From assembly GCA_016928395.1 (NCBI GenBank), contig JAFGKV010000072.1:1-43257 (forward strand): a stretch of 43,257 bases of DNA, written 5' to 3'. Of this stretch, positions 38,245 to 42,756 are shown piece after piece. The translations under genes and the position numbers were made by a program. The number at the start of each line of letters is the position of its first letter. The first letter of the stretch is position 1. Source of the stretch: Candidatus Fermentibacterota bacterium (GTDB lineage Bacteria > JAFGKV01). The notes below the pieces were generated by a model. That model was not told where the DNA came from and searched no databases. It saw nothing but the letters and a program-made list of their open reading frames with translations.

Positions 38245-39975
38245 TCACCGGGCCGATCGGCCCGACGCCGATGGCGGGGTGCTCTTTCTCGACCTGTCTC
38301 CAGGGAAAGGCGGTAGCCTCCGTCGTCGGAGGCGGCCATCGATCATGCTGAGTCTATCGGCATGGGCGAAGGTATGCACTCCCACGATACGCGGATTCCA
38401 CCGGGGCTCGATCATGTCGACTTCCCGCTCCTCATACTCCTCTTCGTCTAACCTGACGATCTTGTTCATTCTGATGCCGTAGCCATAGCCCATGCTGCCG
38501 TCCTGGGAGGGGCGGTAGAGCTGGCCGTCGTACAGGAAGATCCTGCCTGCCGGCCGGGCTCTTCGCACGTCGGACACAATGGGATTTTGGGGATGCGGAG
38601 TCCACTCCTCGCTGAGCGGCGTGTCGGCGCTGAAGAGGAACAGCTCGTCTTCGATCGATGCTCCCCGGTTTTCTTTCATGTTCGCGAAAAGCCACCACCT
38701 GGCGCCGTGGTGCAGCAGCGTGGCATCCACCGCCTCCACTCCTGTCATGAGATTCGCGCAGAACTCCCACTCACGGGGAAACTGGACGCATCGGTATGCT
38801 TCGATGGTCCCGTTCTCCATGGATTCTGGAATCATGTAGTACTGTCCCCGCCACTCGAATACGAAGGGGTATGACAAGTGATACGGCCTCTCCAGAACCC
38901 GAACAGGATCTCCATATGCCCCATGTTCGTCCATCACCATGACTGAGACATGCCCCTTGCCGCGGCCGTAGAGGAACTCCTCGAAGAAGATGTAGTAGTT
39001 GCCATCTCTGTGAATGACGTGGGGGTCTGCCCAGAACCTGTCCCGCGGCGGGACTATGGGCCGGTACCGGCGAAACGACGTCGAGAGGTCGTCTCGAAGG
39101 TCGCACAGGAGAATCCACTGCTCATACGAGAGCCATTCCTTGAGCTTGGATCTCGCATACCCACACCAATGCCTCAGTAGGAGAGGGAGGAACTCGGCAT
39201 TGCTCGGCTGCACGTAGAGGGGATGAGAGTAGAAGGCCAGGCTCCGGTTCTCGGCCCTTACGCGTGCCCGAAAGCGTTCCGGTCCCCGGCGCAGCTCTTC
39301 CAGGAGCCTGGGCACAAGCGACAGCGACTTCCAGTAGTAGTTATTGCAGTTGCGGTTCACCGAGAGCTGATCCGTGGCCGAGTATGACCGGCATAGGACC
39401 ACGCCATTGTCCAAATCCGGCGTCAGTACTTGCACCACCGAGCCGGTGGTCGGATGGTGCTCCATGACTTCCCAGAACCCGGGCGGGGCACCCCGGTTGA
39501 TTCGATTGTCCCCATGATGGAAAGACCAGATACCGTGCTGTGCGCTCTGGAGGATTCTCCCCTTCAAGATCCTGAACCCGAAGCGGAGGAATACATCGAT
39601 GCCGTGAGGCTCGATCCGGGCGTTGTCCTCATCGGAGATGGTGTCGCAGAACCGTGTCTGCCGGGGAGTGACCGTCATTCGGGCAACCCCGGTCAGGAGG
39701 GGTTCGGCATCCATGGGTTCGAAGGCCTCGGGATTCTGCCGGAACAGGCGCCGATCAAGACGTTCATAGGCCATGTAGAGCAGGAAGCGCCGGTTGCGCC
39801 AGAATTTGGCCAGAATGCTTTGCCTGGGTTTCTCGGCCCCGTTGAGCACGATGAGGCTCACGGCAGCATAGTCTGAGTTCACTATCCTCTTGAGCATCTC
39901 GAATGCCCAGGCAGGCAGCTCGGTGGAGTCCATCAGGAGCCCGACTTTCAGGGGCTTGTTGTGCTCGTTGTCCAC
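38245..39975 (-). CDS. formyltransferase-like domain fused to GINT1-type glycan domain
   Basis: A 576-residue protein without a signal peptide. The N-terminal part (about 8-260) resembles the methionyl-tRNA-formyltransferase fold (VGLLMDSTELPAWAFEML, GIWSFHHGD, NRGAPPGFWEVMEHHPTTGS, LTPDLDNGVV). The catalytic His and Asp have counterparts, but the catalytic Asn is replaced by Ser in GIWSFH. The C-terminal half (about 300-550) has the five-bladed pattern of glucosamine inositolphosphorylceramide transferase N-terminal domains (RFWADPHVIHRDGNYYIFFE, SYPFVFEWRGQYYMIPES, DATLLHHGARWWLFANM). A role in formylating a sugar for a surface glycan is plausible. The start is a GTG at 39975 with AGGAGG six bases upstream; the longer frame lacks a signal. 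It has a good sigma70-like promoter at 40062-40090. Confidence 0.8.
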   Translation of the reverse strand: MDNEHNKPLKVGLLMDSTELPAWAFEMLKRIVNSDYAAVSLIVLNGAEKPRQSILAKFWRNRRFLLYMAYERLDRRLFRQNPEAFEPMDAEPLLTGVARMTVTPRQTRFCDTISDEDNARIEPHGIDVFLRFGFRILKGRILQSAQHGIWSFHHGDNRINRGAPPGFWEVMEHHPTTGSVVQVLTPDLDNGVVLCRSYSATDQLSVNRNCNNYYWKSLSLVPRLLEELRRGPERFRARVRAENRSLAFYSHPLYVQPSNAEFLPLLLRHWCGYARSKLKEWLSYEQWILLCDLRDDLSTSFRRYRPIVPPRDRFWADPHVIHRDGNYYIFFEEFLYGRGKGHVSVMVMDEHGAYGDPVRVLERPYHLSYPFVFEWRGQYYMIPESMENGTIEAYRCVQFPREWEFCANLMTGVEAVDATLLHHGARWWLFANMKENRGASIEDELFLFSADTPLSEEWTPHPQNPIVSDVRRARPAGRIFLYDGQLYRPSQDGSMGYGYGIRMNKIVRLDEEEYEEREVDMIEPRWNPRIVGVHTFAHADRLSMIDGRLRRRRLPPFPGDRSRKSTPPSASGRSAR

Positions 39976-40032
39976 TGATGGGCCTCCTGGGCGGTTCACA
40001 AACGGCGAATCCCGTTCTGGGTCGGCGGGTTG

Positions 40033-40055
40033 CCGCGTCCGGTCACGGGACGCGG
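40033..40055 (-). promoter_or_regulatory. 5' leader hairpin of the formyltransferase transcript
   Basis: CCGCGTCC (40033-40040) pairs perfectly with GGACGCGG (40048-40055) across 7 bases. It begins about 7 bases downstream of the -10 box of the promoter at 40062-40090, so it should sit at or next to the 5' end of the RNA. Confidence 0.45.
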
Positions 40056-40061
40056 GCGTCA

Positions 40062-40090
40062 AGTATAGGCATTGGTATGGCCTCAATCAA
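40062..40090 (-). promoter_or_regulatory. sigma70-like promoter of the formyltransferase gene
   Basis: On the minus strand, TTGATT (40090-40085), a 17-bp spacer and TATACT (40067-40062). The boxes and spacing are near the classical sigma70 form. The leader to the GTG start at 39975 is about 80 bases. This differs in kind from the direct-repeat elements before the secretome blocks. Confidence 0.6.
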
Positions 40091-40231: not shown

Positions 40232-40993
40232 TCATACCTCGGCAGCCCTGCTGCTGCCGCCCCTGGCCAAGACCGCGCACAGGCTAAGGGTGCCTTCCCT
40301 TCCGCCGGCCCTGGTGGCGAACGCGACCTTCAGCGCGGCGCCTCCGGCAAGATCCGCCAGTTCGGTCGTGTCGATCCAGTGACAGTAGCGGTATGCGCCG
40401 CTTCCTCGCCAACCCAAAAGCGCATCGTTGGGATCCACGTCGCCTTCGTCGATCCCGGCGACGCTCCACGAAACGAGCTTCCTCCGCATCCGCTCGTTGT
40501 CCAGGAATTGCCATGTAGACACCAGGATCCTGCCCGCCGGCGCCATCAACCCTTCCGCGCGCCCAAGCATGGCCTGACGAGCCTGGGCCGTGGGTATATG
40601 ATGAAGGAGGGCCAGAAGCAGTACCGTGTCGAAGAGGGGGGCGATGCCTGCCTGTCGCAGCACGGCTGATGGGTCGGCATTCACCACATCGCACTGCAAG
40701 AACGAGACGGATCCCGCCCCGGGCGTGGTCATGCCTTCCCGCGCCTCATCGAGAAGTGTTGCTGATGCATCTACTCCCACATAGCTGCCGCCCCACCCCC
40801 GTGCCGCGAGCAGCCGTGCCACCCTTCCGTTCCCACACCCAAGATCCAGCACCCTTGCGCGGGCCGGGACCCACGGTATAATCCACTCAAGCTCAGAGCC
40901 TGAGGGCGAACGGGTGTCGCTGAACTCCCGGGCGTGATCTTCATAGAAAGCCCTGTTGATCTCCAGGAGACGCCGAGCCGTATCGGGGCTCAT
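40232..40993 (-). CDS. Trm9/ALKBH8-like SAM-dependent methyltransferase
   Basis: A 253-residue class I methyltransferase. Motif I is VLDLGCGNGR (48-57); the acidic loop after strand 2 is YVGVDAS (71-77); motif IV/post-I includes LLALLHHIPT (His131, His132). The N-terminal FYEDHAREFSDTR (16-28) resembles the HFSxTR signature of Trm9 and the ALKBH8 methyltransferase domain, and later segments (ILVSTWQF, LLGWRGSGAYRYCHW, ELADLAGG) match that family's layout. Trm9 methylates carboxymethyluridine at tRNA position 34. The gene is divergent from an Elp3 gene across 86 bp, the enzyme that makes that very substrate. The start at 40993 has AGGGG seven bases ahead; an upstream GTG at 41023 is less likely. 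A general small-molecule methyltransferase is the alternative. Confidence 0.75.
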   Translation of the reverse strand: MSPDTARRLLEINRAFYEDHAREFSDTRSPSGSELEWIIPWVPARARVLDLGCGNGRVARLLAARGWGGSYVGVDASATLLDEAREGMTTPGAGSVSFLQCDVVNADPSAVLRQAGIAPLFDTVLLLALLHHIPTAQARQAMLGRAEGLMAPAGRILVSTWQFLDNERMRRKLVSWSVAGIDEGDVDPNDALLGWRGSGAYRYCHWIDTTELADLAGGAALKVAFATRAGGREGTLSLCAVLARGGSSRAAEV

Positions 40994-41079
40994 CGCCGAG
41001 CCCCTGGTCGGGCGCAAAGCCACGATTCTGCGGGCGTCGATGGCGCCAGGAACCCCGCGCCGATGGGAACGAGGACACG

Positions 41080-42756
41080 ATGACTCACCATGAGAACCTC
41101 CGGGAACGGTGGGCAGAGTGGACAGCCCGGCATGAAGATGGGGGCAGTGCCCTCTCCGACGCCACTCTTGTCACGCTCATGGACCGGTTGACGGCCGTGG
41201 ACACGCCGACGCACCAGAAGGTTAGAACCCTGATCCACCGGATCGCGGGGCCGACCGTGTCAAAGGTCGATGTGTTGCGGGCATACCGGGCCCTGGTGGC
41301 GCGGGGGCTGGCCGAGGAACGCCCCGAGCTCCTCTCCGCGCTTTGCCTGAAGCCGACTCGTACCATCTCAGGCGTGACCCCGGTGGCGGTCATGACCGAG
41401 CCGCACCCATGCCCTGGGTCGTGCATCTTCTGTCCTGATTTCGACGATATGCCAAAGTCCTACATCACGGATGAGCCTGGCGCCCTTCGGGGCCTTCAGC
41501 TTGATTTCGATCCGTATCGCCAGACCAGACATCGAATCCAGGCCCTGACCACCATCGGCCACGCGACTGACAAGATCGAACTCATCGTCTTGGGGGGCAC
41601 GTGGTCAGCGTACCCCCGGGAGTATCAGGAGCGGTTCATTCGGCGCTGCTTCGACGGGATGAATGAGTCTGATTCTACGACACTGGGAGACGCCCAGCAG
41701 CGAAATGAACGCGCGCAACACCGCAATGTGGGCCTCGCGGTTGAGACCCGGCCGGATCTGGTGACGCTTGACGAGGCGGCGTGGTTGCGCAGGCTCGGCG
41801 TCACCAAGGTGCAGGTGGGCGTGCAGAGCCTCGATGACCGGATTCTGTCGCTGAACCGTCGCGGGCACACGGCTGATGACACCCGCCGGGCCTTCGCTGT
41901 TCTGCGGGCTGCCGGATTCAAGATTCACGCCCACTGGATGCCCAACCTCTTGGGTGCGACGCCTGAGTCTGACCTTGTGGATTTCGCCCGGCTCTGGGAC
42001 GATCCGGCCATCCGGCCCGACGAGCTGAAGATCTACCCGTGTTCCCTCATCGCGGGCACGGAGCTGTACCGGCTCTGGGAAGGGGGAGAGTATGTACCCT
42101 ATTCGGATGACGAGCTGATCGAACTCCTGGCCCGATGCAAGGCGATAATCCCGCCGTACTGCCGGGTGACGCGCCTCATGCGGGATATCCCGGTGCATCA
42201 TATCGAAGCAGGATGCCGGATTCCCAATCTCCGGCAGACCGTGCGTCGTAACATGGGGGAGCGCGGGCTTCGCTGCCGATGCATCCGCTGCCGCGAAGTG
42301 CGCGTGAGTGATGTTGATCCACAATCGATAGTTCTCGACGACACGATCTATGAGACACCGACCAGCACCGAGCATTTTCTCTCGTTCGTCGCTGCCTCGA
42401 CATCTGCTGAGCCGTCGCGGCTTGCAGGCTTTCTCCGGCTTTCACTGCCCACACAGGCTGCCGACGTGCGCGGGATCGTCCTGCCGGAGCTCAGGGGTGC
42501 GGCGCTCATCCGTGAAGTCCACGTCTATGGCCCCTCGCTGCCCCTGGGAACCCGTGCGCCCCATGCCCAGCATCGCGGCCTCGGGACAAGGCTCCTTGAG
42601 GAGGCCGCGCATATCGCCCGCAACGCCGGTTTCCGCCGCCTCTCAGTCATCTCGGCCATCGGCACGCGTGCCTATTATCGAGCCCGGGGCTTCAGGCTGG
42701 GCGAGCTGTACGTGCATCAGGACCTCGACTCACGGCGGTGTGAGCCCAGCCATTGA
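41080..42756 (+). CDS. elp3: Elp3-family tRNA uridine(34) acetyltransferase (radical SAM/GNAT)
   Basis: A 558-residue Elp3, the enzyme that builds the carboxymethyl group on wobble uridine of tRNA from acetyl-CoA with a radical-SAM mechanism. The N-terminal helical part (1-85) is followed by the radical-SAM core with the FeS cysteines 111, 115 and 118 in CPGSCIFCPDFDDMPKSY. GGTWSAYP, GLAVETRPDL and VQVGVQSLDD are typical. The zinc-binding RCRCIRCREV lies before the C-terminal GNAT domain, whose acetyl-CoA loop is QHRGLGTRLLEEA, followed by RRLSVISAIGTRAYYRARGF. Length and order match bacterial and archaeal Elp3. GAGGACACG precedes ATG 41080. Eukaryotic Elongator needs Elp1-6, but the bacterial enzymes act alone. 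Confidence 0.95.
   Translation: MTHHENLRERWAEWTARHEDGGSALSDATLVTLMDRLTAVDTPTHQKVRTLIHRIAGPTVSKVDVLRAYRALVARGLAEERPELLSALCLKPTRTISGVTPVAVMTEPHPCPGSCIFCPDFDDMPKSYITDEPGALRGLQLDFDPYRQTRHRIQALTTIGHATDKIELIVLGGTWSAYPREYQERFIRRCFDGMNESDSTTLGDAQQRNERAQHRNVGLAVETRPDLVTLDEAAWLRRLGVTKVQVGVQSLDDRILSLNRRGHTADDTRRAFAVLRAAGFKIHAHWMPNLLGATPESDLVDFARLWDDPAIRPDELKIYPCSLIAGTELYRLWEGGEYVPYSDDELIELLARCKAIIPPYCRVTRLMRDIPVHHIEAGCRIPNLRQTVRRNMGERGLRCRCIRCREVRVSDVDPQSIVLDDTIYETPTSTEHFLSFVAASTSAEPSRLAGFLRLSLPTQAADVRGIVLPELRGAALIREVHVYGPSLPLGTRAPHAQHRGLGTRLLEEAAHIARNAGFRRLSVISAIGTRAYYRARGFRLGELYVHQDLDSRRCEPSH

Follow-up and report, generated by a model that had tools for sequence, protein, structure and literature searches.

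We analyzed a 43,257-nucleotide stretch of DNA from a Candidatus Fermentibacterota bacterium (here called the window), which terminates with a divergent pair of genes coding for a methyltransferase (MT) and for Elp3. Table 1 lists the features of this locus along with genes of interest found elsewhere. The original prediction of a methyltransferase with an FSDTR motif near its start, located 86 bp from a full-length Elp3, was borne out by the coordinates, the TIGR01211 match of Elp3, and the location of FSDTR at residues 24 to 28. The MT reading frame extends from an ATG at 40993 to the stop at 40232; a longer version initiating at the GTG at 41023 was not supported, since the methionine at 40993 aligns with the start positions of relatives. 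We found no sigma-70-like consensus site in the intergenic region. MT is adjoined by a gene for a GINT1_N-domain protein that is missing from the corresponding site in the genome G001, where a DUF4097-like gene comes after MT.

Table 1. Features of the MT-elp3 locus and of further loci mentioned in the text; positions refer to the window unless a record handle is given.
Feature	Position	Strand	Basis
GINT1_N-domain protein	38245-40086	-	
MT, Trm9-like class I SAM methyltransferase, 253 aa	40232-40993	-	Motifs, profile matches, predicted fold
Divergent intergenic region, 86 bp, between both start codons	40994-41079	.	ORF boundaries
Elp3 (558 aa), radical SAM and acetyltransferase enzyme predicted to carboxymethylate U34 of tRNA (cm5U)	41080-42756	+	TIGR01211, 5l7j alignment
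CysH-like gene between elp3 and MT	L118 5232-6014; L122 5352-6104; L126 4214-4966; L131 5196-6005; L133 5128-5880	elp3 strand	One Pfam-checked
Site-2-protease-like membrane protein gene between elp3 and MT	L127 5083-6243; L129 4691-5842		By eye
Trm112-methyltransferase fusion, same genome as the window	L001 1438-2517		

The features that characterize the window Elp3 are the following. (i) It scored 500.3 bits against TIGR01211, for which the curated cutoff is 350. (ii) It contains the Pfam domains Radical_SAM, Radical_SAM_C, and Acetyltransf_1. (iii) It matched the Elp3 of Dehalococcoides mccartyi (DmcElp3; PDB code 5l7j) with an E value of 7e-112, and the alignment shows that the Fe-S cysteines in CPGSCIFC and CRCIRC are kept. 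(iv) Also kept are the equivalents, hand-counted on the 5l7j alignment, of K77, K193, E386, and Y441, which are key residues of the Dehalococcoides enzyme (PMC6367351). The window protein thus resembles DmcElp3 in being a bacterial Elp3 with the same key residues, and it would be expected to make cm5U34 on tRNA.

The nature of MT was less evident from individual searches, as the window sequence alone retrieved just generic class I methyltransferase matches in single-sequence, Pfam, and NCBIfam searches and exceeded no NCBIfam cutoff. Apart from FSDTR, of which F24 and R28 are invariant in the 25 members of the MT family, it contains the motifs DLGCGNGR, LLHHIP, and STWQF and a lid with NDALLGWRG..YRYCH. 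The family is sharply bounded: among 251 Chloroflexota genomes there were 24 matches with E values of 1.6e-105 to 1.0e-67, and no other genome gave a match below 1e-20. An actinomycetotal candidate (L043) was rejected as a member because its match was confined to the core. PHROG 4752, annotated as tRNA methyltransferase, matches MT at 7e-9, likewise over the core.

Profiles built from the family were then compared with solved structures. The Trm9 of Yarrowia (5cm2) was the top match of a 3-member profile (E value of 3.1e-10), was tied first with the uncharacterized protein 3sm3 for a 12-member profile (1.7e-13), and ranked first for the 25-member profile (1.4e-14). The alignment with 5cm2 extends from the TR motif to the lid (profile positions 25 to 223), whereas most other matches end near position 155. 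With hhalign, MT aligned with Trm9 over 174 columns (98.9%, E value of 1.9e-17) and with the Escherichia coli tRNA cmo5U34 carboxymethyl ester synthase CmoM over 116 columns (96.3%, 1.7e-9), the latter restricted to the Rossmann core; a full-length profile match to CmoM was absent. The Trm9 lid segment scored better against the C-terminal MT profile than all of 2,000 shuffled versions, and in a full-length comparison with the shuffling confined to the lid, the real sequence was third of 2,001, with 2 of the 2,000 shuffles scoring higher. A PDB search with the C-terminal lid of MT by itself failed to recover Trm9. The original prediction had called for such a comparison between Trm9 and other class I families; the best profile match is Trm9, and neither an enzyme of the CmoM type nor a named enzyme acting on small molecules. 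The predicted fold of MT (pLDDT of 91.9, pTM of 0.90) ranked Trm9 fourth in Foldseek, whereas in VIA-align 2 METTL6 came first and Trm9 was not among the best 50 rows listed. Many kinds of class I enzymes score alike in these fold comparisons, which fail to separate the methyltransferase families.

In yeast Trm9, residues R29, H115, R241, Y243, and N271 were reported to be important for tRNA binding and activity (PMC5372719). The equivalents of R29, H115, and R241 in the window MT are R28, H131/H132, and R202, with the yeast-to-Yarrowia mapping inferred from motifs, and R28, H132, and R202 are invariant in the 25 family members. The position of Y243 is not conserved, being C204 in the window MT and mostly C or V in its relatives. 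That of N271, as judged by motif, lies outside the profile alignment and is probably S in the window MT and N in several relatives. Since an equivalent of Y243 is absent, we refer to MT as Trm9-like and not as Trm9; as judged from these residues, it is a predicted Trm9-like enzyme with a partly different pocket.

We surveyed the co-occurrence of both genes, as had been suggested in the original prediction, and found the pair conserved across phyla, namely, in the phylum of the window, in Chloroflexota, and in Myxococcota. Each of the three genomes that represent the phylum of the window in the genome collection contains both MT and elp3; they are divergent neighbors in G000 and G002, whereas in G001 they are found on two contigs, but the N-terminal 20 residues of a divergent Elp3 are encoded at the beginning of the MT contig, abutting MT. 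The divergent pair was also observed in the public Chloroflexota genomes L035, L036, L038, and L040 and in Myxococcota (CP070734; L041). In a sample of 251 Chloroflexota genomes, in which presence and absence rest largely on metagenome-assembled genomes, MT was found in 24 and Elp3 in 45. All 24 MT genomes contain Elp3 (Fisher P value of 2e-21, relatedness ignored), and in 20 of them the two genes are divergent within about 2.2 kb. This arrangement, together with the presence of both genes in 3/3 genomes of the phylum of the window, indicates that the pairing is not due to chance. Outside the sample, Elp3 was found in seven of eight further MT genomes (five above the cutoff and two partial matches), and there was no Elp3 match in the remaining one (G006). 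The 21 sampled Elp3 genomes without MT (L082 to L101) are mostly small and have a separate Elp3 clade.

The two genes are not always immediate neighbors. In one group of Chloroflexota, probably including L120, elp3 and MT are separated by a CysH-like (PAPS/APS reductase-like) gene with the orientation of elp3; in L126 it overlaps the start of elp3. In two other Chloroflexota a site-2-protease-like membrane protein is encoded at this place.

In the tree of Elp3 sequences, the MT-associated proteins split from 19 MT-less Chloroflexota Elp3s with a support of 100/100; a single MT-less protein (G204) is placed among the former. Groupings common to the MT and Elp3 trees include the window with G001 and G009 with G010. 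The latter unites Chloroflexota and Myxococcota, and in the MT tree also includes G011. These shared groupings, compared by inspection of the trees, suggest that the pair seems to have been inherited or transferred as a unit.

The canonical bacterial pathway for the modification of the wobble uridine is that of MnmE and MnmG, which leads to cmnm5U. Profile searches of the three genomes of the phylum of the window did not detect MnmE or MnmG. Matches to MnmE were limited to the GTPase region of the profile, and weak MnmG matches, far under the cutoff and covering about 100 residues or less, were rejected; the one in the genome of the window corresponds, by eye, to a TrmFO-like frame beside an XerC-like gene. 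At an E value of 1e-40 or better, MnmG was present in 100 of the 251 Chloroflexota genomes. None of the 45 Elp3 genomes contained it, compared to 100 of the 206 genomes without Elp3 (P value of 6e-12, relatedness ignored), and in 106 genomes neither Elp3 nor MnmG was found at this threshold. No MnmG exceeded the cutoff in the eight further MT genomes, which include the holder of the 3.67-Mb chromosome record CP070734. MnmA was found in the phylum of the window and was above the cutoff in 15 of 18 pair-bearing genomes; since it is mostly present, a thiolated product is possible.

Eukaryotic Trm9 acts with Trm112. It had been stated beforehand that the window contains no Trm112 gene, and both Trm112-domain matches of the genome are indeed located on other contigs. 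The search of the genome for a Trm112-like zinc protein returned these two matches. One is a Trm112-like stretch of approximately 87 amino acids in which the typical zinc cysteines are absent; it can be translated in frame with a domain lying upstream. The other is a fusion with a methyltransferase, adjoining a glycosyltransferase-like gene (Table 1). Among Chloroflexota, a Trm112p match was present in 20 of 24 MT genomes versus 125 of 227 others (P value of 0.008, and of 0.30 within the Elp3 genomes). The 15 Trm112p proteins from MT genomes that we inspected have 72 to 97 amino acids, and nearly all contain CPxC and CxxC motifs. A Trm112-like partner for MT is thus possible. The function of bacterial Trm112 proteins was called unknown in a review.

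The presence of the two proteins, their conservation and linkage, and the lack of MnmE and MnmG were computed from the genomes. We infer from the sequences the cm5U product, the methyl esterification, the set of tRNAs modified, and any Trm112-like partner. In the proposed pathway, Elp3 would use acetyl-CoA and radical SAM chemistry to add a carboxymethyl group to C5 of U34 in certain tRNAs, giving cm5U34, and MT would then methylate the carboxylate of cm5U34 with SAM as the donor, yielding mcm5U34, a methyl ester. In some tRNAs, the additional action of MnmA would lead to mcm5s2U34. Elp3 and MT would stand in for MnmE-MnmG, which were not found in these genomes. In known systems, the product of Elp3 is methylated by Trm9. 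The initial proposal that the pair carries out a two-step wobble modification in a bacterium has gained support from the Trm9 profile match, the pairing across phyla, and the absence of MnmG from the pair-bearing genomes tested. With good confidence, we consider Elp3 and MT to be a bacterial two-step wobble-uridine module (cm5U to mcm5U34) that replaces MnmE-MnmG.

Several other functions of MT were considered. MT may act on the Elp3 product without forming the simple methyl ester; it may, for instance, methylate a further derivative of cm5U or a different position of the same tRNA. Such an activity would agree with the strict dependence of MT on Elp3 in the sample and with the lack of conservation, in the window MT, of the Y243 position and probably of N271; however, MT shares with Trm9 the lid and the equivalents of R29, H115, and R241, and we regard such an activity as unlikely, with a small but appreciable chance of being correct. 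A more distant role, in which MT would methylate a small molecule or a protein and have no relation to tRNA, would be in line with the generic Pfam and NCBIfam matches noted above, but it is difficult to reconcile with a sharply defined family that falls wholly within the sampled Elp3 set and is mostly divergent to elp3 in several phyla. This role appears very improbable. CmoM, in turn, is a class I enzyme that also makes a methyl ester on the U34 side chain and has the same fold as MT (Z score of 19.3), which raises the notion of a CmoM-like methyltransferase acting on cmo5U next to elp3 by coincidence. The core-only alignment with CmoM, as opposed to the longer and stronger one with Trm9, and the confinement of the sampled MT to Elp3 genomes render this notion very improbable as well.

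The preferred reading, in which MT esterifies the Elp3 product, has counterparts in other domains of life. Systems of the Elp3-Trm9 type are known in eukaryotes and have been proposed for some archaea (PMC2584109, PMC7694415). The window pair resembles eukaryotic Elongator with Trm9-Trm112 or ALKBH8 in having the Elp3 catalytic subunit and a Trm9-like enzyme with an FSxTR-type motif, HH, and an R-Y-x-H lid. Unlike the eukaryotic system, it is bacterial and apparently takes the place of MnmE-MnmG; MT differs from eukaryotic Trm9 in lacking Y243 and probably N271, and no Trm112 gene adjoins the pair. Judging from published descriptions, it is also similar to the Sulfolobus cluster of elp3 and trm9-like genes and to Haloferax Elp3/Trm9; in these archaeal systems, Elp3 occurs without the other Elongator subunits (PMC2584109, PMC5372719). 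In contrast to these, the present pair is found in Bacteria (Chloroflexota, Myxococcota, and Eisenbacteria/Fermentibacteria records). Reviews assign mcm5U to archaea and eukaryotes, and one review from 2017 stated that no bacterial Trm9 had been found. Our literature searches, whose coverage left out most subscription journals and all preprints, retrieved no paper on a bacterial Trm9, and a conserved bacterial Elp3-Trm9-like pair is not described in the literature found.

Taken together, the data suggest that bacteria of several phyla have probably exchanged MnmE-MnmG for an archaeal/eukaryotic-style Elp3-Trm9 system and carry mcm5(s2)U34, by way of a two-gene divergent module whose parts are passed on together, whether by inheritance or by transfer. 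Should this be confirmed, mcm5U would cease to set bacteria apart from the other domains. Bacterial Elp3 would be provided with a pathway, which would explain how these bacteria manage without MnmE-MnmG, and small systems would become available in which Elp3 and Trm9 could be studied as enzymes. A role for bacterial Trm112 proteins might also emerge.
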